Source: an uncultured Oscillospiraceae bacterium
Lineage (GTDB): Bacteria > Bacillota > Clostridia > Oscillospirales > Oscillospiraceae
Reading direction: 5' to 3'
DNA length: 14,423 nucleotides
NCBI GenBank assembly: GCA_934621665.1
Contig: CAKTUT010000025.1
Location: 1 to 14,423 of the forward strand
The notes under the pieces were generated by a model, which did no database searches, was not told where the DNA came from, and saw nothing but the letters and a program-made list of their open reading frames with translations. Below are positions 5,067 through 14,313 of this stretch, piece after piece. Both the position numbers and the translations under genes were made by a program. How positions within the stretch are numbered: position 1 is the first letter of the stretch; every line of letters begins with the position of its first letter.

Positions 5067-5108
5067 ATTATAATCGGTATCGTGCCGTTTGCGTGAACAT
5101 TTTGTAAA
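5067..5108 (-). promoter_or_regulatory. Response-regulator operon promoter with direct-repeat box
   Basis: On the minus strand TTTACA (5103-5108), AAATG and TTCACG (5092-5097) form a direct repeat with an 11-base step. A perfect -10 TATAAT (5067-5072) follows after 19 bases; no good -35 is present. The box closely resembles the one before htrA (TTTACA-NANNG-TTCA in both). The leader to the start at 4991 is about 70 bases. Confidence 0.6.
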
Positions 5109-5154
5109 AACACGGTCTTGTTTGCACAAGGAACGCAGATTTCCGTTTTTTCCG

Positions 5155-5183
5155 TTTCCCAAATGCAAAATCTGTGATAGAAT
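5155..5183 (+). promoter_or_regulatory. Putative extended -10 promoter of the GH3-like gene
   Basis: TAGAAT (5178-5183) is preceded by TG one base away (5175-5176), an extended -10. TTTCCC at 5155-5160 is a poor -35 at 17 bases. It is divergent from the regulator promoter. Confidence 0.5.
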
Positions 5184-5226
5184 AGCGGCAGAAGATCGCG
5201 TAATGATTTACGACAGGAGATATATC

Positions 5227-7335
5227 ATGGAACTGACACCCCGAATGAACCATGCCGCACTCACTGCCCGCACCGCCGCGGCGGGCAGCATGGTGCTGTT
5301 AAAGAACACCGGCAATACGCTCCCGCTCCGCCCCACTGGAGCAGAGCCGCTCCACGCGGCCGTTTTTGGCTGCGGCCAGATCTTTACTGTCTGTGCAAGC
5401 GCCCGGATGCAACCGTGGCGCACCGTCAACGTCCTTGACGCGCTGTGTACATCCGACGCCGTCCGTCCCGACGGTCTGCTTGCGCACAAATACCGCGAGT
5501 GGTGTCTTGCGCACCCGGCAGGCGAGGAAATGCCGCTGACGCGCCTGAGTATGGAGGAACTGGCGGAAAACAACGAGGCCGCGATCATCGTCATCTCCCG
5601 CACCGAAGAGGACTATCGTCCGCAACTGTCACAGCTTGAGCAAGACATGATCAAAACCGTCTCGGGTGCATTTTCGCGCACGGTTCTGGTGCTCAATACG
5701 CCGGGCTATCTGGAGCTTGGCGAGAACGCACAGCTGCCCGGCGCAATTTTGTTTATGGGCATTGCCGGTCAGGAGGGCGGCGGCGCGCTGACCGATATTC
5801 TCACGGCCAAGGTCATGCCCTCCGGCCGTCTGGCGCACAGCTGGCCGGTCTCGCTTTCCGACTTTGACGAGGCGGCCTGCATCTATGACAGCTTTGTCGG
5901 CTACCGCTGGTTTGACTCGTTTGGCACAGACGTGCGCTATCCCTTTGGCTATGGCCTTGGCTATGGCAAATCGGAGCTTACGTCGGTGGCCGTTGGCCTT
6001 GACGGCTGCGATGTGGTGGTCTCGGTCGAAGTGTCCAACACCGGCAGCACCTGGCCAGTGCAGGAGGTTGTGCAGGTCTATTTCTCCAATCCCGCAAGTG
6101 CAAATGGCGGCTGCGTATACCAGCTGGACTGCTATCAAAAGACGCGCCCGCTTGACCCGGGCGAGAGCCAGCATGTCACGCTGCGCTTTCCCATTACGGA
6201 GATGGCCGTTTTTTCGCAGAGCGCGTCGGCTTTCGTGCTGGAAGAGGGCTATTATGACATCCGCGTGGGCACGAACAGCCGCGCAACGTATATTGCCGGT
6301 TCAATCCGCCTGACGCGCAGCGCGGTGGTACAGGCGCTTGCACCTATGCAGATGGCAGACGCAGCCGACCGCACGCGCACCGGCGCGGGCTTTACCTATC
6401 CGGAGGAGGCCGAGGAGCTTGCCGCGGCGCACCGCCGTGCCATCCGCTTCTCCGACCGCAATCTGCCGCGCCGGAGCGTAAAAAAGGGCCGCAAATTTAC
6501 CGGCTGCCGTGCCGACGGCAAAGAGCACACGTTCAGCGATGTGCTGCGCGGCTGGTGCTCGCCGTTCCAGCTGATCGCATCCATGGATGACCACAGTCTG
6601 CGCACGCTGGTGTATGACTTTGGCACGCAGCCGTCCGCCATCCCCGGTGCGCTTGGCGCGTCGGCCGCGCTTGAACGCTATGAAATCCCGGCCATGAACA
6701 TTGCGGACGGTGCTGAGGGACTGCATCTTCTGCGCGAGGTGCGCGACGACGAGACAGACAAGGTTGTCCGCCGTCAGTACTGCACTGCATTCCCGGCAGC
6801 AAGTCTGCTTGCCTGCTCGTTTGACCCGGATCTTATCCGCGCCGTTGGCACGGCAATCGGCAGGGAGATGCGTGAATACGGTGTTGACCTGTGGCTCACA
6901 CCGGGCTGCAACCTGCTGCGCACACCGCGCCAGCACGCGTTTGCAAGCAGCTGGTCAGAAGATCCTGTTGCCTCCGGCCTTTGCGCCATGGCTCTGGCCA
7001 GCGGCGTGCGCGCCTATGGCGCGCCGGTGCTGCGCAGCTGCGCTAATATGCCCGTCACGCTGTCGCAGGCAGCATATCGAAGCGTCTACGCGCTGCCGTT
7101 CGAAATTGCCTGTGGCGCATATCCCGCCGCGCTTATCCCGGCGCAGCCGGTCAACGGTGAGGCTGTGGGCGAGGACAGCGTACTGGTGCGCTCAATGATC
7201 CTCGACTGGCACTTTGCCGGAATGTTCCTTGCAGACAATGAGCGCTACGCAGCCGAGCCCGACCGTGTGACGCTGGAAAAATCGGCTCTGCGCATCCTGC
7301 GGCTGATGCAGGAGCAGAAAAAACCGCTCCGCTGA
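5227..7335 (+). CDS. Glycoside hydrolase family 3-like protein, reversed domain order, eroded active site
   Basis: Related to beta-glucosidases and beta-xylosidases of family GH3. The 702-residue chain begins with what is normally the C-terminal part: an alpha/beta sandwich (about 15-245, with SMVLLKNTGNTLPL and FVGYRWFD...VRYPFGYGLGY), then a fibronectin III-like domain (about 250-365). A linker follows, and the (beta/alpha)8 barrel comes last (about 440-700). Reversed GH3 proteins are known from Butyrivibrio and Ruminococcus. The barrel is recognisable (ADGAEGLH 493-500; FDPDLIRAVGTAIGREMREYGVD 532-554; SEDP 577-580) but short and diverged. The K-H of the usual KHF motif is Arg603-Ser604, the MTAYN-like stretch is lost, and the segment after the nucleophile position (Asp670 in FLAD) is nearly absent. 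No signal peptide, so probably cytoplasmic. The start at 5227 has AGGAGA eight bases upstream. It may have an altered substrate or be inactive. Confidence 0.88.
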   Translation: MELTPRMNHAALTARTAAAGSMVLLKNTGNTLPLRPTGAEPLHAAVFGCGQIFTVCASARMQPWRTVNVLDALCTSDAVRPDGLLAHKYREWCLAHPAGEEMPLTRLSMEELAENNEAAIIVISRTEEDYRPQLSQLEQDMIKTVSGAFSRTVLVLNTPGYLELGENAQLPGAILFMGIAGQEGGGALTDILTAKVMPSGRLAHSWPVSLSDFDEAACIYDSFVGYRWFDSFGTDVRYPFGYGLGYGKSELTSVAVGLDGCDVVVSVEVSNTGSTWPVQEVVQVYFSNPASANGGCVYQLDCYQKTRPLDPGESQHVTLRFPITEMAVFSQSASAFVLEEGYYDIRVGTNSRATYIAGSIRLTRSAVVQALAPMQMADAADRTRTGAGFTYPEEAEELAAAHRRAIRFSDRNLPRRSVKKGRKFTGCRADGKEHTFSDVLRGWCSPFQLIASMDDHSLRTLVYDFGTQPSAIPGALGASAALERYEIPAMNIADGAEGLHLLREVRDDETDKVVRRQYCTAFPAASLLACSFDPDLIRAVGTAIGREMREYGVDLWLTPGCNLLRTPRQHAFASSWSEDPVASGLCAMALASGVRAYGAPVLRSCANMPVTLSQAAYRSVYALPFEIACGAYPAALIPAQPVNGEAVGEDSVLVRSMILDWHFAGMFLADNERYAAEPDRVTLEKSALRILRLMQEQKKPLR

Positions 7336-7462: not shown

Positions 7463-7492
7463 TTGACAGATCGCAGAAAACGCGCCTATAAT
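7463..7492 (+). promoter_or_regulatory. Consensus sigma-A promoter of the riboswitch-controlled importer operon
   Basis: TTGACA (7463-7468) and TATAAT (7487-7492), both perfect, are 18 bases apart. A/T tracts from 7434 to 7460 resemble an UP element. Transcription should start near 7499, just ahead of the riboswitch. Confidence 0.93.
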
Positions 7493-7520
7493 GAGCGCAA
7501 TTAAATAACAGTCAAACAAA

Positions 7521-7690
7521 GATATAGAGGCGCGGAAACAATCAGTATCTCCCAGCAGGCTCTCAAAAGCCGACGATGGGGAGCGAAAGGTGCTTCCGCC
7601 GAAATGATCACGCGATTGAGCGCGGGATTGTTGGGCGTCTGGAGAACATCCATTCGACTGTCGCAATTTGATTGCGGAGTGCTATCATCG
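7521..7690 (+). promoter_or_regulatory. Lysine riboswitch (L-box) aptamer
   Basis: The leader carries the conserved L-box blocks in order and spacing: AGAGGCGCG (7526-7534), AGTA (7544-7547), GGGGAGCGAAAGG (7578-7590), CCGCCGAA (7596-7603), GACTGTC (7656-7662) and GGAGTGCTATC (7676-7686). The P1 stem can form between ATAG (7524-7527) and CTAT (7682-7685). This matches the pattern of the Bacillus subtilis lysC leader, including the ATAG-AGG opening and the GCTATC closing. Free lysine should stabilise P1 and favour the downstream terminator. The switch controls the ABC importer genes that follow, giving lysine as the predicted substrate. Confidence 0.92.
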
Positions 7691-7725
7691 GTTTCGGAAA
7701 TTCCCCCTTTTCGGGCAGCCATTTC

Positions 7726-7761
7726 AACGGTCGAAGCACTTTGCTTTGACCGTTATTTTTT
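7726..7761 (+). terminator. Riboswitch-controlled terminator (expression platform)
   Basis: A 12-base-pair stem AACGGTCGAAGC / GCTTTGACCGTT (7726-7737 and 7743-7754, one G-T pair), loop ACTTT, then A and six T. The competing antiterminator is visible: GCGGAGTGC (7674-7682), on the 3' side of the aptamer, pairs over nine bases (two G-U) with GCACTTTGC (7736-7744), which spans the terminator loop. The two folds exclude each other, and the antiterminator also consumes the P1 3' side. From 7762 to 7848 no further structure or gene is evident. Confidence 0.93.
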
Positions 7762-7862: not shown

Positions 7863-8729
7863 ATGAGAAGAACATTATCTGTTATTTTGGTATGCGTACT
7901 GCTGATTATGTCGCTGGCCGGCTGCGGCTCGCGCGAAAAGGTTGATCTGAAGAACGCCAAGTCGCTTGCCGACCTCAAGGGCGCAACGCTCGGCGCACAG
8001 ACCGGTACGTTCCATCTGACCGCGCTCGATCAGGTGGAGGGCATCACGAAAAAGGACTTTGCCGACTTTACCGACCTGCTCAACGCGCTCAAGTCCGGCG
8101 CAATCGACGGCTATGTGGCCGAAGAACCCACAGCGCTTGGGGTCTGCGGCAAGGACGATACGCTGACGTATCTGCCGCTTCAAAACAATTCCACCGGCTT
8201 TACCGCTACCGACGAGGAAACCGGCATTGCCATCGCTTTCAAGACCGGCTCTGATATGGTTGCGCCCGTCAATGAAATCCTGTCCGGCATTTCGCAGGAA
8301 ACCCGTCAGGCACTGATGGCACAGATCGTGGCCATGAGCGCCGACCCCGACAAGATCGGCGAGGTGTCCGTTTTGAGCTATGACGACAGCGACACGTCGA
8401 ACGGCACGCTGAAGATCGCCATGGAATGCGCCTATGCGCCGTTTAACTGGACGCAGACGACCGATGCAAACGGCGCTGTCCCCATTCAGGGTCAGAACGG
8501 CATGTACGCCAACGGCTATGACGTGCAGGTTGCAAAGTATGTTGCCGCATCACTCGGCATGGCGCTTGAGGTTTACGCCTATGAGTGGGATTCGCTGATT
8601 CCTGCCGTCCAGTCCGGCGCGGTGGACGCCATTGCCGCCGGTATGAGCCCCACGGCCGAACGTGCCGAGCAGGTCGATTTCACCGACTGCTACTATAACA
8701 GCAACCTCGTCGTCATCATTAAAAAGTAA
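7863..8729 (+). CDS. Solute-binding lipoprotein of a lysine ABC importer, circularly permuted SBP_bac_3 fold
   Basis: Binds the amino acid outside the membrane and delivers it to the permease. The 288 residues start with a lipoprotein signal peptide (LAGC, lipid anchor Cys21). The order of the mature part is unusual. Residues 34-160 are lobe 2 (SLADLKGATLGAQTGT, DGYVAEEPTA, GIAIAFKTGSD, a C-terminal helix); after a linker, residues 180-288 are lobe 1 (GTLKIAMECAYAPFNW, GYDVQVAKYVAASLGM, EWDSLIPAVQSGAVDAIAAGMSPTAERAEQVDF) and the protein ends in YYNSNLVVIIKK. In relatives such as GlnH and LAO-binding protein lobe 1 comes first, and this last segment runs directly into the SLADLKG segment. Ligand contacts are kept: Arg267 for the carboxylate, Glu87 at the alpha-amino Asp position, Tyr191, and Glu188 where LAO-binding protein has side-chain-binding Asp11, fitting a basic ligand. 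RBS AGGAGG at 7849-7854. First gene after the lysine riboswitch. Confidence 0.93.
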   Translation: MRRTLSVILVCVLLIMSLAGCGSREKVDLKNAKSLADLKGATLGAQTGTFHLTALDQVEGITKKDFADFTDLLNALKSGAIDGYVAEEPTALGVCGKDDTLTYLPLQNNSTGFTATDEETGIAIAFKTGSDMVAPVNEILSGISQETRQALMAQIVAMSADPDKIGEVSVLSYDDSDTSNGTLKIAMECAYAPFNWTQTTDANGAVPIQGQNGMYANGYDVQVAKYVAASLGMALEVYAYEWDSLIPAVQSGAVDAIAAGMSPTAERAEQVDFTDCYYNSNLVVIIKK

Positions 8730-8803: not shown

Positions 8804-8825
8804 AAAAACGATTTAGGAGTTCATG

Positions 8826-9590
8826 ATGGAATTTTTATCGGAAGTTGTTGCACTGGTGCGTCAGTACTGGTCCTACCTGCTCACGGGCGTGGGCTACACA
8901 ATGCTGCTTGCGCTGGTCGGCACGATTGTCGGCTTTCTCATCGGCCTGCTGACGGGCGTAATCCGCACTGCGCCGCAGTCAAAAAACGGCGCGGTACGCG
9001 TCTTGCAGAAAATTTTGAACGCGATCATCGCGGTCTATATTGAAATTTTCCGCGGCACGCCGATGATGGTGCAGGCAATGGTGATTTACTGGGGTTATGC
9101 ATTTCTCAATGACGGCAGCACGCTGCCGCTCATCCCGGCAGGTCTGTTCATCGTCTCAATCAACACCGGCGCGTATATGGCCGAAATTGTCCGCGGCGGC
9201 ATTTTGTCGGTAGACAAGGGGCAGCTGGAGGCAGCCTATGCCGTCGGCATGACGCACAGCCAGTCGATGTGCAAGGTCATTCTGCCGCAGGTGGTGCGCA
9301 ACATTCTCCCGTCGGTCAGCAACGAATTTGTCATCAACATCAAGGACACCTCCGTTCTGAACGTCATCGGCGTGACGGAGCTGTATTATATGGCGGGCGT
9401 CATCAAGCGCATCAATTTGCAAACGTTCCAGGCCTATACGGTTATCTGCGTACTGTATTTCATTCTGACGTTTACCGTCACACGTCTGCTCCGTCTGGTG
9501 GAAAAGAAGCTGGCCGGTTCTGACAACTATACCATCTGCGGCTCGGGCTCTGACTCGCAGGCCGAGATTCACATTCAAAAGGAGGCGTAA
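8826..9590 (+). CDS. Amino acid ABC importer permease (HisM/GlnP type), predicted lysine
   Basis: Integral membrane subunit that forms the translocation channel, probably as a homodimer. The 254 residues show an N-terminal membrane helix (about 12-35), the polar amino acid permease signature region and about five helices in all. The cytoplasmic EAA loop begins at residue 135 (EAAYAVGMTHSQSMCKVILPQ spans the conserved EAA, G and LP positions) and docks onto the ATPase. A hydrophilic tail follows the last helix (about 230-254). AGGAG (8815-8819) lies six bases before the ATG at 8826; an ATG at 8823 is possible but only three bases away. It follows the binding protein after a hairpin-containing gap, and the ATPase starts three bases after its stop. 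Substrate is inferred from the riboswitch. Confidence 0.94.
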   Translation: MEFLSEVVALVRQYWSYLLTGVGYTMLLALVGTIVGFLIGLLTGVIRTAPQSKNGAVRVLQKILNAIIAVYIEIFRGTPMMVQAMVIYWGYAFLNDGSTLPLIPAGLFIVSINTGAYMAEIVRGGILSVDKGQLEAAYAVGMTHSQSMCKVILPQVVRNILPSVSNEFVINIKDTSVLNVIGVTELYYMAGVIKRINLQTFQAYTVICVLYFILTFTVTRLLRLVEKKLAGSDNYTICGSGSDSQAEIHIQKEA

Positions 9591-9593
9591 GGC

Positions 9594-10331
9594 ATGGCGG
9601 AAATTCTGAGACTGGAGCATCTGGAAAAGTCATTCGGCACGCACGCCGTCCTGCGCGATGTGAGCTTCTCGGTCAGCAAGGGCGACGTAATCAGCGTCAT
9701 CGGCCCATCTGGCTCGGGCAAGAGCACAATGCTGCGCTGCATTAACCTTTTGGAAGAGCCGACCGGCGGCAAAATCATCTTTGAGGGAAATGACATCAGT
9801 GGCAAGGCTACAAACCTTTCACAGTACCGCGCGCGCGTGGGCATGGTATTCCAGCAGTTTAACCTGTTCAACAACATGAACGCGCTGGAAAACTGCGTCA
9901 GCCCGCAGATGACCGTTCTGCACCGCTCGCGCGCCGAAGCCGAGCGCATTGCACATGGCTATCTTGCCCGTGTTGGCATGGACGCATACTGCAACGCCCG
10001 TCCGGCGCAGCTGTCCGGTGGGCAGAAGCAGCGCGTGGCCATTGCGCGGACGCTCTCGATGAGCCCGGACATCATCCTGTTCGACGAGCCGACAAGTGCG
10101 CTTGACCCCGAGATGGTGGGCGAGGTTCTGGACGTTATGAAGTCGCTTGCCGCAGAGGGCTTTACCATGCTGGTAGTGACGCACGAGATGGCCTTTGCCC
10201 GCGACGTATCCAGCCACGTGATCTTTATGGACGGCGGCTATATTTTGGAAGAGGGCACGCCCGAGGCGCTGTTCGGAAGCCCGAAAGAAGCACGCACAAA
10301 GGAGTTTCTTGCCCGCTATTTACAACGATAA
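9594..10331 (+). CDS. Amino acid ABC importer ATPase (GlnQ/HisP type), predicted lysine
   Basis: Cytoplasmic motor of the importer. The 245 residues contain every active motif: Walker [10 protein letters not shown] (37-45), Q-loop MVFQQFN (84-90), signature LSGGQ (140-144), Walker B IILFDEP with Asp164 and catalytic Glu165, D-loop SALD and switch His197 (THEM). Length and sequence are those of polar amino acid uptake ATPases (PAAT). RBS GGAGG (9581-9585) lies within the end of the permease gene with eight-base spacing. It is the last gene of the importer operon and is followed by a strong terminator. Confidence 0.97.
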
Positions 10332-10481: not shown

Positions 10482-10931
10482 ATGGACATCACAGAACGGA
10501 AAATCACGAAAATTGCGCGAGAGGCGGAAAAGCTGGTTCTTCTGGCGCTGCGCGAGGAGGGTGTCGGCACAGCGGAAATTGATCTGATTCATGCGCTGCG
10601 CCACAATCCCGGCTGCACACAGGCGATGCTGGCAGAAATTCTGCACGCGGACAAGGCGGCAATTGCGCGGCGGACAAAAAATCTGGAGGCAAAGGGCTTC
10701 CTTGTGCGAAAAGCCAATCCGAACGACCGCCGCAGCCAGCTGCTGTATCCGACCTTGCGGGCGGAAACACTGAAATCGTCCAAGGCCGAAATTGAGGCCG
10801 CCTTTTACGAGTATCTGACCACTGCACTGAGCGCGGAGGAAGCAAACACATTTGCAGCGCTGCTTGACAAGGTGTATACCGCGTCAAAAACGGAGAGCCG
10901 TGCGGGCTTCCCGCACCTGATTGGGAGATAA
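10482..10931 (+). CDS. MarR-family transcriptional regulator
   Basis: Predicted homodimeric repressor of its own operon and of the exporter genes behind it. The 149 residues fit the family: N-terminal dimer helices, a winged helix with the HTH at about 45-70 (CTQAMLAEILHADKAAIARRTKNLE) and a wing with NPNDRRSQLL (79-88), where the D-R-R triad is typical, then C-terminal dimer helices. GGAGG (10470-10474) stands seven bases before the start. The first exporter gene begins six bases after the stop. MarR genes placed this way usually answer to a small toxic ligand that the transporter exports; the ligand here is unknown. Confidence 0.93.
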   Translation: MDITERKITKIAREAEKLVLLALREEGVGTAEIDLIHALRHNPGCTQAMLAEILHADKAAIARRTKNLEAKGFLVRKANPNDRRSQLLYPTLRAETLKSSKAEIEAAFYEYLTTALSAEEANTFAALLDKVYTASKTESRAGFPHLIGR

Positions 10932-10937
10932 ACGTAC

Positions 10938-12686
10938 ATGAAGCAAGCAGAGAAACAGACGTTCTGTCCCAACAAAATCAGCTCTTATTTCCGTGCGGAA
11001 TGGCTGACGTTGAGCTTTGTGACAATCTCGGGACTGATTTATAACGTGGGGCTGCTTGCTGCACCGTGGTTTGAGGGCTGGCTTACACAATGCCTTGCCG
11101 ACATTCTGGGTGGAAGCAGGACTGGCGGTGCAATGGCGGCGCTGGTAGCAGCCTATCTCGGCGTGACGCTTCTTGTACAGGCAGCGCGCTTTCTCAAGCG
11201 CTTTTACGTCCGCCGCTTTGCCAACAACATCAACCGCCGGATGAAAGGCGTGCTCTATGCCAATCTTCTGCGCGAAAGCCGTGCGTCTTTGCAGCACGAG
11301 GGCGCGGGTGCGCTGATGACAAAGGCCATCTCCGACGTGGACGACTGCGTAGAGGGAATGCGGAAATTCACCACCGAAATTTTTGACACCGGTGTGGCGC
11401 TTGTCGGCTACGCGGTGATGCTGCTTGTATACGACTGGCAGCTGGCGCTGCTCAGTCTGATTTTTACACCATTTTCCTATTTTTGTGCCGCGCGGATGAA
11501 GAAAACCGTCCAGCGCGCGGGCGCAGCCTATAAAAAAGCCGCAGGCGCGCTGAGCGCAGCCACGCTTGACCGCGTGGAAAACGCCGTGACCTACCGCATC
11601 TACGGCTGCGAGGACGCATGGGCGGTGCAGTATGAGGAAAACCTGCGGGCCTATGAAAAAACTGCAGTTCGCTCCAACGTATGGCAGTCTGCATTGCCGC
11701 CGCTGTATCTGGCGGTGTCGGGCGCAGGCGTGCTGTTTATCCTGTGGTTCGGCGCGAAAAACGTACTTGGAACAGGCTGGCGCACATGGGATATTGCGGC
11801 GTTTACTACATTTCTCTCCTGCTTTACAAAGCTGACGGTAAAGTCCTCCAAAGCTGCGAAGCTGTTTAACGCAGTGCAAAAGGCCGAGGTTTCATGGAAG
11901 CGCATCCAGCCGATGATGCGCCCGCCCGAGAACCTGTCGCCACTTGCGATTCCCGCACCCGCGGACGTGACGCTCAAGCAGCTTTCCTTTGCCTATGGTG
12001 ACGAGACGATTTTCTCCGGGCTATCGCTTACGGCACACCCCGGTGATATCATCGGCGTGACCGGCCCGGTTGCCTGCGGCAAGTCTACATTTGGACGCGT
12101 ATTTCTCTGTGAAGCGCCGTATGGCGGCTGTGTCCAATTTGGAACGCGGGAGCTTTCCGGCCTTTCCGCAAGGGAAATTGCCGCAACGGTCGGCTATCTC
12201 GGCCACGATCCGGAGCTTGCGGCCGACACGGTAGAACATAATGTTCTTTGCGGAAGTAAGCAGGACGCCTTGGTGTACCTGTCGGCAACGGCGCTCAAGG
12301 ACGAGGTGCTTGCCATGGAAAACGGGCTGGATACTGTAATCGGCAGCAGCGGCGTGCGTCTTTCCGGCGGACAGGCGCAGCGGCTGGCGCTGGCAAGGAC
12401 GCTGGCACATCCGCGCCCGGTGCTGATTCTGGACGACCCGTTTTCCGCGCTTGACCGTAAAACAGAGGACACGGTATTTGCGCATCTGCGGCGCTATGCA
12501 AAAGACAAGGTCGTTTTCCTGATTTCCCACCGGCTGTACCACTTCCCGCAGCTCAGGCAGATTGTTTTCATTGAAAACGGAAAAACAGCCGTCGGCACAC
12601 ACGACGAGCTAATGACGCGCGTTCCGGCCTATCGCCATCTTTATGAAAGCCAGACAGGAGGTGCGCTGCATGAGGCACAACGCTAA
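10938..12686 (+). CDS. Heterodimeric ABC exporter, subunit 1 (degenerate ATP site)
   Basis: A transmembrane domain with about six helices (about 20-320) fused to a nucleotide-binding domain (about 345-575), 582 residues. Walker A is GPVACGKST (376-384), with Ala in place of the fourth-position Gly. The signature LSGGQ (475-479) is canonical. Walker B LILDD ends in Asp500 where the catalytic Glu is expected, and the switch His531 is present. Asp for Glu is typical of the non-consensus subunit in exporters such as BmrCD, LmrCD and TM287/288. GGGAGA (10923-10928) lies at the end of the MarR gene. The next gene overlaps this one by 17 bases in another frame, so the two subunits are coupled. Likely a drug, lipid or peptide exporter under MarR control; the substrate cannot be told from sequence. 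Confidence 0.93.
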   Translation: MKQAEKQTFCPNKISSYFRAEWLTLSFVTISGLIYNVGLLAAPWFEGWLTQCLADILGGSRTGGAMAALVAAYLGVTLLVQAARFLKRFYVRRFANNINRRMKGVLYANLLRESRASLQHEGAGALMTKAISDVDDCVEGMRKFTTEIFDTGVALVGYAVMLLVYDWQLALLSLIFTPFSYFCAARMKKTVQRAGAAYKKAAGALSAATLDRVENAVTYRIYGCEDAWAVQYEENLRAYEKTAVRSNVWQSALPPLYLAVSGAGVLFILWFGAKNVLGTGWRTWDIAAFTTFLSCFTKLTVKSSKAAKLFNAVQKAEVSWKRIQPMMRPPENLSPLAIPAPADVTLKQLSFAYGDETIFSGLSLTAHPGDIIGVTGPVACGKSTFGRVFLCEAPYGGCVQFGTRELSGLSAREIAATVGYLGHDPELAADTVEHNVLCGSKQDALVYLSATALKDEVLAMENGLDTVIGSSGVRLSGGQAQRLALARTLAHPRPVLILDDPFSALDRKTEDTVFAHLRRYAKDKVVFLISHRLYHFPQLRQIVFIENGKTAVGTHDELMTRVPAYRHLYESQTGGALHEAQR

Positions 12687-14313
12687 ATCTGGCGTGTTTG
12701 CCGCGGTTCGGACGGCGGCGGTAACGCACCGACTGCTCACCGTGGGGACGATTTTATGCGTGGCCGCATCGGTTGGCGCCTCGCTTGTGCCGCCGCTGCT
12801 GCTGGCGCGCGTAGTTGACCGGCTGACTGGAGGACTGTCGCTGTCGTTTGGCGCAGTGCTGGTCTATTTTGGAAGTCTCGCGCTGGAAGGCGTGCTTTCC
12901 TCGGCGCAGGAGACGCTCCTGGTGCTGTTCGGGCAGAAAATGACCCACGCTCTGCGCTCGGAAATGTCACAAAAACTCACGCGGCTTCCGGCGGACACGC
13001 TTGCAGGGCAGAAACCCGGCGAGGTTGCCGCGCGCTTTTTGGGCGATGTCGATACGGTGGAGGCGCTTTTCACCTCCGGCATCATCAGTATGGTGGCAGA
13101 CGTTTGCCGGATCGTCTCGATTCTGGTGGTAATCGCGGCCAAAAATATTGGTCTTGCATTTATTTTGCTGTTGGTGCTGCCGCTCTTCGCTGTGTTCACG
13201 CGGCACGTGCAGAAGAAGATACTGGCTGCGCAGCTGGATAACCGCCGCGCTGTTGCGGCAGTCTCCGGGCAGGTACCGGAGACGCTTCACAACATCCGCA
13301 CCATCCGTCTGCTCGGGCTGGAACAATACATGGAGCAGCGCTATGACCGCCGCATCGGTAAAAGCTATGCTGCTTTGGAAAAAACGAATTTTTACGACGC
13401 AATCTACTCGCCCGTTGTGCTGCTGCTGGAGGCAGCGGTGGTTGGCATTGTGATGCTGCTCTCGGCCTCGGGCAATGCGGAAATTCTAACGCTGTTTGGA
13501 ATGTCAGTCGGCACATCGGTTGCCATAATCGACTACATTCGCCGCATTTTTTCACCAATTGAAAGCCTCGGCATGGAAATTCAGACGATTCAGTCGGCCA
13601 TAGCGGGCGTCAAACGCATTGACGCGTTTCTTGACCAGCCGGAGCGTGAAATTTCTCCGGAACGAAATGAAGCGGCGCGCGGCGACGTCGTTCTTTCCCA
13701 TGTTACCTTTGGCTATGGAGAAAAGCCGGTGCTGCGCGATTTCTCCATGACTGTCAAGTCGGGCGAGCAGGTCACGCTGATTGGCAGAACGGGCGCAGGC
13801 AAGAGCACAGTGTTCCGGCTTTTGCTGGGGCTCTATCCGCCGGAGGCCGGCCGCGTCACCATCGGCGGCGTAGACGTCTCCAAGATCACCGATTGCGAAC
13901 GTCGGGCAGCGATCTGCTGCGTGGAGCAGCATTTTTCACGCGTGCCGGGGACGGTGCTTGACCAGATTACGCTCGGCGATGCGCGCATTACGCGGGAAAT
14001 GGCACAGAATGCAGCGCGGCTTGCCGGAATTGACGGTGCAATCTCGGCGCTCCCAGACGGCTACGACACCGTATGCACTGACGGCATTTTTTCGCAGGGA
14101 GAGTGGCAGCTTTTGTCTATTGCCCGCGCTGCGGCAGCAGACCCGGCGGTGCTTTTGCTGGACGAGATCACGGCAAATCTCGACGCCGAGACCGAAGCGC
14201 ACGTTCTGGAAGCGCTGCGCCGCGCGTCAAAGGGGCGCACGGTGCTGTCCATCTCGCACCGCATCTATGAAAATCTCGGCGGCAGGACAATCGAAATTAC
14301 GCCGCAATCATAA
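12670..14313 (+). CDS. Heterodimeric ABC exporter, subunit 2 (catalytically competent Walker B)
   Basis: Partner of the preceding gene: a six-helix transmembrane domain (about 15-310) and a nucleotide-binding domain (about 335-545), 547 residues. Walker A GRTGAGKST (372-380) is canonical, Walker B LLLDE has catalytic Glu499, and His530 is present. The signature motif is FSQGE (474-478) instead of LSGGQ. In the dimer this pairs a good site (its Walker A/B with subunit 1's LSGGQ) and a poor site (subunit 1's Asp500 with FSQGE), the usual asymmetry of heterodimeric exporters. The start at 12670 is chosen because AGGAGG (12656-12661) lies eight bases upstream; an in-frame ATG at 12643 has no such site. 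Two hairpins follow the stop. Confidence 0.93.
   Translation: MRHNAKSGVFAAVRTAAVTHRLLTVGTILCVAASVGASLVPPLLLARVVDRLTGGLSLSFGAVLVYFGSLALEGVLSSAQETLLVLFGQKMTHALRSEMSQKLTRLPADTLAGQKPGEVAARFLGDVDTVEALFTSGIISMVADVCRIVSILVVIAAKNIGLAFILLLVLPLFAVFTRHVQKKILAAQLDNRRAVAAVSGQVPETLHNIRTIRLLGLEQYMEQRYDRRIGKSYAALEKTNFYDAIYSPVVLLLEAAVVGIVMLLSASGNAEILTLFGMSVGTSVAIIDYIRRIFSPIESLGMEIQTIQSAIAGVKRIDAFLDQPEREISPERNEAARGDVVLSHVTFGYGEKPVLRDFSMTVKSGEQVTLIGRTGAGKSTVFRLLLGLYPPEAGRVTIGGVDVSKITDCERRAAICCVEQHFSRVPGTVLDQITLGDARITREMAQNAARLAGIDGAISALPDGYDTVCTDGIFSQGEWQLLSIARAAAADPAVLLLDEITANLDAETEAHVLEALRRASKGRTVLSISHRIYENLGGRTIEITPQS

Follow-up and report, generated by a model that had tools for sequence, protein, structure and literature searches.

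Can the two lobes of an amino-acid-binding protein be encoded in exchanged order and still make up the receptor of an importer? This question is raised by a gene at 7863-8729 (forward strand) of contig CAKTUT010000025.1, from an uncultured Oscillospiraceae bacterium (assembly GCA_934621665.1); the whole stretch analysed, 14,423 nucleotides, is referred to below as the window. In GlnH, HisJ and the LAO-binding protein the canonical order is lobe 1, lobe 2, C-terminal helix. We regard it as highly probable that the gene encodes a predicted lipoprotein of the SBP_bac_3 family with its halves exchanged, standing behind a lysine riboswitch and probably serving as the lysine-binding protein of the ATP-binding cassette (ABC) importer specified by the pair of genes that follows, and that its order likely came from a tandem duplication followed by loss of the outer halves. 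The parts of the gene are listed here, segments X and Y being named after the lobe anatomy of GlnH and LAO.

7863-8729 (+): permuted SBP_bac_3 lipoprotein gene, 288 amino acids (Pfam, phmmer and rotation-scan evidence)
7863-7925 (+): signal peptide and lipobox (LAGC, Cys21), read off the translation; lipidation predicted
7953-8342 (+): segment X, residues 31-160, the canonical C-terminal part (the bulk of lobe 2, together with hinge 2 and the former C-terminal helix)
8343-8399 (+): linker, residues 161-179, connecting the old C-terminus to the old N-terminus
8400-8726 (+): segment Y, residues 180-288, the canonical N-terminal part (lobe 1, hinge 1 and the first strand of lobe 2)

Order of the halves and position of the cut

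An earlier note on this DNA, made from the letters of the sequence, had read the SBP_bac_3 motifs as running from lobe 2 to lobe 1, and both crossed matches to known structures and a rotation scan bear this out. In a phmmer search against the PDB, residues 186-288 align with residues 15-104 of the AncQR chain (4zv1) and residues 32-143 with its residues 109-217, and the same crossing is seen in the remaining four printed alignments (6h30, 4ymx, 4prs and 6svf). The PF00497 match is confined to residues 204-288 (75.8 bits, cut-off 26.4), so that the half-by-half alignment proposed in the note succeeded for the second half and failed for the first, which had no Pfam match up to an E-value of 1 when residues 34-172 were searched alone. 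Because this model covers one half here and the other is without a Pfam match, the protein also serves as a warning that family models assuming the canonical order may recognise no more than half of a protein of this kind. Up to the same E-value there were five Pfam matches (SBP_bac_3, Lig_chan-Glu_bd, Drf_DAD, DctP and LptM_cons), with no periplasmic sugar-binding family among them. The NCBIfam model for lysine/arginine/ornithine solute-binding proteins (SBPs), TIGR01096, scored 92.9 bits, under its cut-off of 256.35.

For the rotation scan, a hidden Markov model of 243 positions was built from 67 canonical-order units, with permuted proteins excluded. The native protein scored 137.3 bits over profile positions 11-112, and the chain rotated to start at residue 162 scored 216.1 bits over positions 11-237. 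All starts at residues 152-181 score within 5 bits of the best, which places the linker at about residues 161-179, close to the 160-180 that had been proposed for the junction of the old termini. Rotation gained at most 0.1 bit in the controls, namely E. coli ArgT and HisJ, which lie outside the profile, and five canonical relatives inside it (L120, L121, L098, L053 and L167). Among the permuted relatives the gain was at least 24 bits in 14 of the 15 scanned; the exception, L103 (1.5 bits), probably has its open reading frame (ORF) start called too early, an identical protein (P0181) having 277 rather than 335 amino acids, and the early start leaves extra residues between the joined halves. 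Both halves therefore match one protein in exchanged order, and rotation restores the end-to-end match. A single collinear SBP_bac_3 domain, the finding that the note had named as decisive against its reading, did not appear: only positions 19-92 of the 132 in PF00497 were aligned, and full coverage of the in-house profile needs rotation. It follows from this order that the predicted lipid anchor hangs from lobe 2 rather than from lobe 1, as the note had also held.

The cut does not lie where it was first placed, at the exit of a hinge strand from lobe 1. The AncQR residues left unmatched between the two crossed segments are 105-108 of the chain, in lobe 2, and a structure model predicts strands at the C-terminus (residues 272-279 and 282-287) and a first helix past the signal peptide at residues 35-38, so that the C-terminus retains the entire hinge and the strand that follows it. 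At the same site the canonical sister L120 has a loop, ADSKYVDAKS, between LVVVVR and IGDF. A cut at the hinge is thus ruled out by the AncQR gap and the predicted C-terminal strands; the chain is opened within lobe 2, in the loop that separates the first strand of this lobe from its first helix, and since this lies past hinge 1, both lobe crossings should persist. The single-chain model reached a predicted TM-score (pTM) of 0.80. Its X segment matched TmArgBP domain 2 and SocA 141-225, and its Y segment matched LAO domain A; full-length matches were headed by OpuAC chains. Among the 50 rows listed by Foldseek, a sequential program, the TM-score by query length was at most 0.42.

The arrangement is conserved. 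Homologues were compared as the best 120 of 6338 for the window protein, of 464 for L107 and of 1389 for L058. In the first list, 117 proteins have the order X-Y, two have X-Y-X and one has Y-X-Y. Ratios of nonsynonymous to synonymous substitution (dN/dS) in five species pairs were 0.03-0.13 for X and 0.03-0.17 for Y. In the linker, dN was 0.22-0.39, higher than in the flanking halves by a factor of 1.9 to 25 in all five pairs, with dS undefined in four of them. Purifying selection acts on X and on Y, whereas the linker between them is much less constrained.

The lysine riboswitch operon and the probable ligand

The earlier note had placed the gene behind a lysine riboswitch, and the aptamer is recovered well above its gathering score, in the following setting.

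7463-7492 (+): sigma-70 type promoter, TTGACA - 18 - TATAAT, 12/12 in a consensus scan
7517-7692 (+): lysine riboswitch aptamer RF00168, cmscan 105.2 bits (gathering 30, E 1.3e-27)
7726-7754 (+): intrinsic-terminator-like hairpin between aptamer and gene, a 13-pair stem then a T run
8823-9590 (+): single amino-acid ABC permease gene, PF00528 82.6 bits, TIGR01726 59.3 bits (cut-off 42.2)
9594-10331 (+): ABC ATPase gene of the importer, PF00005 125.5 bits; the best NCBIfam model, GlnQ, is below its cut-off

The hairpin is likely the expression platform and would have a regulatory role. A permease of the His/Glu/Gln/Arg/opine type and an ATPase adjoin the SBP gene, which is the layout of an operon for a polar amino acid uptake (PAAT-type) importer. 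One genome scan gave 22 relative loci, in 21 of which the SBP gene is complete or almost so. In all 21, X precedes Y and the permease gene lies next to the SBP gene; the ATPase gene is within the fetched stretch in 20, the exception being L014. The lysine riboswitch was found in 20 of the 22 loci, and the other two (L020 and L022) begin at or inside the gene; with L116 and L117, which also have it, the total is 22 of 22 relatives with upstream DNA. The more distant loci with the same cut, L102-L109, had no lysine riboswitch at the gathering score (0/8), so that the question whether homologues of this order all lie in such operons is answered with yes for close relatives and with no for distant ones. 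Canonical-order relatives fetched by the same search carry the riboswitch in 17 of the 20 scanned, and the canonical sisters L120 and L121 in 0 of 2 at the gathering score.

The residues presumed to hold the ligand were located by a permutation-corrected alignment with ArgT. Three of them are given here.

8121-8123 (+): Glu87, counterpart of LAO/ArgT Asp161
8424-8426 (+): Glu188, counterpart of LAO/ArgT Asp11
8661-8663 (+): Arg267, counterpart of LAO/ArgT Arg77

In LAO, we take Asp161 to bind the amino group of the ligand, Asp11 its side chain and Arg77 its carboxylate. In the full unpermuted alignment, ArgT Asp11, Tyr14, Phe52, Ser72, Arg77, Ser120 and Asp161, all presumably in contact with the ligand in LAO, correspond to E188, Y191, W242, S262, R267, T49 and E87. 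The seven positions are invariant in a 22-sequence alignment that includes the window protein, and at each of them L120, L121 and L098, its canonical sisters, carry the residue that it has. Because these ArgT-equivalent residues are conserved and a lysine riboswitch lies upstream, lysine is the likely ligand.

These features suggest how the system could work. When lysine is scarce, the riboswitch would let transcription through the terminator, and the lipoprotein would fold into an ordinary clamp of two lobes, since all that the permutation does is to link the old termini and to open the chain anew in a lobe-2 loop past hinge 1. The clamp could then close on lysine with the same residues of both lobes as in the canonical sisters, and the loaded protein would dock on the permease. 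The shift of the anchor to lobe 2 is likely tolerated, and either lobe could carry the tether, because lobes 1 and 2 resemble each other in fold and a single permease gene implies a likely symmetric dimer.

Origin of the exchanged order and alternative explanations

The tree of SBP units was built on permutation-corrected rows, with half-order labels assigned beforehand; dropping units at least 70% identical to a kept one reduced 127 units to 78. Its relatives are those that the queries find and were mostly fetched with permuted queries, so that the proportions in which permuted and canonical rows occur in it should not be read as frequencies. In the careful tree, the window protein lies in a 9-row clade (support 100/99) that groups with four canonical rows at 100/97. 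The four canonical neighbours in the quick tree are L053, L098, L120 and L121, and there they belong to a set of 18 rows, nine of them canonical and nine permuted. The permease of the window is 51-56% identical to the permeases of L120, L098 and L121, and 28-36% identical to those beside the distant same-cut L102-L109. Once unpermuted, the window protein is identical to a canonical-order sister at 121 of 250 positions. The nesting in the tree, the riboswitches of canonical relatives and the similarity of the permeases suggest that the permuted protein likely arose within canonical-order importers of the lysine type.

Of the sisters, L098 has a lysine riboswitch, and none was called for L120 or L121; all three share with the window protein its binding residues, the succession of SBP and permease genes and, once it is unpermuted, 42-48% identity; in L120 and L121 the ATPase gene also follows the permease gene, as in the window. 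They differ in having lobe 1 first and the anchor on lobe 1. Permuted and canonical SBPs of the same operon kind, 42-48% identical and differing in chain order and anchor lobe, thus form a natural comparison pair, with which one could test the sensitivity of the importer to the tethered lobe, the symmetry of docking on a one-gene permease and the dependence of closure on chain connectivity.

Tandem gene duplication followed by loss of the outer halves, as the earlier note had proposed, is the likely route to the exchanged order. It fits three homologues made of three half-units, P0106 (418 amino acids, Y'-X-Y) and P0113 and P0115 (425 amino acids, X-Y-X'), which mix permuted and canonical paralogues: their pieces are 89-99% identical to the permuted gene of L002, and the odd half is at best 59% identical to L053 and 45% to L120, both canonical. 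These records may be half-steps of duplication and trimming, but they may equally be later recombinants or assembly hybrids, and to that extent the route is unproved. The hybrids also suggest that paralogues can be joined, and so bear on another origin, in which the lobes came from two parental genes rather than from one duplicated gene. Across the 21 loci, X is less like the window protein (52.8-74.0% identity) than Y (65.8-86.5%), as such an origin might predict; however, among the matches listed, the same canonical sister, L120, is matched well by both halves (Y 60%, X 43%), and we consider two parents unlikely.

Other explanations leave the origin aside and concern what the protein is. That the order is a product of sequencing, assembly or gene decay might be suspected from the hybrid records and from the fact that most records are metagenome-assembled; but the order is repeated in 117 of the best 120 homologues and in all 21 loci whose gene is full or nearly so, the ORF is continuous with purifying selection on each half, and a distant family with the same cut includes entries under the names Papillibacter cinnamivorans and Pseudoflavonifractor sp. 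524-17. The conserved order and the purifying selection lead us to set an artefact or pseudogene aside as scarcely credible. It is also possible that the halves pair between molecules in a swapped dimer, or that the protein is an accessory binder rather than the delivery subunit, but the confidence of the single-chain model, a linker of about 19 residues between the old ends and the finding that this is the sole SBP gene detected by BLAST with its halves in each of the 21 loci make either quite remote. A broader ligand range has more to recommend it: the LAO ligand residues would suit any basic amino acid, TIGR01096 spans lysine, arginine and ornithine, and the protein might bind arginine, ornithine or several cationic amino acids, with lysine as one ligand among others or as no more than the signal for regulation. 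Against this stands the riboswitch, present before 22 of 22 relatives with upstream DNA and, for canonical-order relatives, before 17 of 20 in one set and 0 of 2 in another, and we therefore judge such a range improbable beside a lysine-binding protein of the adjoining importer.

Recurrence, known systems and neighbouring genes

The close type of the window protein occurs in at least three of the 300 genomes of one family covered by the same-family search, the central genome of that set included. The same X-Y cut is found in L102-L109 (31-35% identical to the window protein among the matches listed) and in L162 and L165. Among the best 120 homologues of L107, 97 are X-Y, including the proteins named after the two organisms above, 15 are canonical Y-X and 8 are single halves. 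Further permuted proteins are cut elsewhere in lobe 2 or are joined to other domains.

L049 1264-2127 (+), L056 1266-2123 (+), L057 1187-2047 (+), L058 1011-1874 (-), L071 1033-1878 (+): stand-alone lipoproteins cut in mid-lobe 2
L054 1217-2803 (+), L055 1309-2949 (-), L066 262-1836 (+): SBP-permease fusions, the SBP cut in mid-lobe 2
L166 1793-2599 (-): third cut site, closer to where lobe 2 begins (some 29 profile positions into X); one genome only
L110 613-4017 (-), with L111, L112, L113, L114, L118 and L119: one-polypeptide importers, X-Y-X-Y, about 1,134 amino acids

The mid-lobe-2 cut was present in eight of 21 genomes searched, fusions included, and in all of the best 120 homologues of L058. 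L049 and L063 are the same gene; L049, L056 and L071 each adjoin canonical proteins elsewhere in the quick tree. In the three fusions, this cut means that the permease is joined to lobe 2. The L110 type consists of a signal, lobe 2 - lobe 1 - lobe 2 - lobe 1, a permease domain, an ATPase domain and an extra C-terminal part; L163 is also tandem X-Y-X-Y, and an AlphaFold2 model of L110 (residues 1-520, 7 sequences) was poor, with a predicted local distance difference test score of 61.4 and a pTM of 0.38. In L115 (2036-5552, +), a tandem permuted importer gene is split over two ORFs, with the break after the first X segment.

A single origin was rejected by the approximately unbiased (AU) test for the 16 same-cut rows (p 6.6e-67), for the 8 mid-lobe-2-cut rows (p 2.6e-9) and for all 35 permuted rows (p 6.1e-45); a change counted on the tree may stand for a gain or for a loss, and the placement of L162, which pairs with the longest row (L069) in the quick tree, is unsure. 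It is likely that permutations of this sort came about independently in further amino-acid importers of the phylum. We lean toward a wider view, in which amino-acid SBPs evolve as if their half-domains formed a ring, one that can open at nearly any point of lobe 2 and that has been reopened repeatedly in this phylum at three or more places, also in SBP-permease fusions and in lobe 2 - lobe 1 - lobe 2 - lobe 1 importers; the window protein would be one such event, in a conserved lysine-riboswitch operon. If this holds, lobe order and the lobe that bears the anchor are evolvable traits of ABC importers.

Natural permuted SBPs are already known as a kind, and it is the amino-acid case that is unusually recurrent. 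TpMglB-2 (Tp0684) of Treponema pallidum is described as a naturally circularly permuted, lipid-anchored ABC binding protein that, permuted and tethered, binds ligand and changes shape on binding; its authors propose the designation 'Type Ic / Cluster Bc' and bring up a possible connection with tethering (PMC4990184). As there described, TpMglB-2 is a type I sugar binder in which the permutation adds a fourth crossover, whereas the window protein belongs to the type II amino-acid binders and has its cut in a loop of lobe 2, and by its Pfam matches it falls outside the type I (cluster B) sugar-binding family of TpMglB-2. Circular-permutation relations were also found with CPSARST for the glycine-betaine binders OpuAC (2b4l) and ProX; these belong to another family, with less than 24% identity among those compared (PMC2395249), in contrast to the 42-48% between the permuted and parent-type proteins here. 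The earlier note knew of no description of this arrangement in lysine importers, and for amino-acid SBPs we found none in our searches of the open-licence literature, which excludes most subscription papers; for binding proteins of other classes, those two papers report permutation. The available parts of PMC2861598 and PMC2912341 held nothing on permuted amino-acid SBPs, and publications on circular permutation together with SBPs, judged by title and the start of the abstract, mostly concern engineered sensors or fluorescent proteins.

Among canonical proteins, LAO/ArgT, HisJ and GlnH share the PF00497 family with the window protein, with both lobes recognisable and the key polar residues at equivalent positions. 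ArgT differs in its canonical order and is about 20% identical (47/231), and E. coli has two permease genes (hisQ and hisM) where the window operon has one. The SBD1-SBD2 tandem of GlnPQ (PDB 6h30) has in its middle the order of the window protein, lobe 2 of SBD1 and then lobe 1 of SBD2; it differs in consisting of two complete canonical domains, and its middle pictures the presumed intermediate.

A swapped domain order is also seen in the product of the gene just before the riboswitch (5089-7335, +), a family 3 glycosidase with Glyco_hydro_3_C at residues 68-292, an Fn3-like domain at 326-397 and the Glyco_hydro_3 N domain at 553-642; reversed domain orders of this family are known in some Clostridia. 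The remaining genes of the window are ordinary: between 780 and 5168 lie HSP20 (+), an HtrA-like protease with PDZ (-), a sensor kinase (-) and a response regulator (-), and at 10482-14313 (+) a MarR-type regulator is followed by two ABC exporter-type half-transporters.
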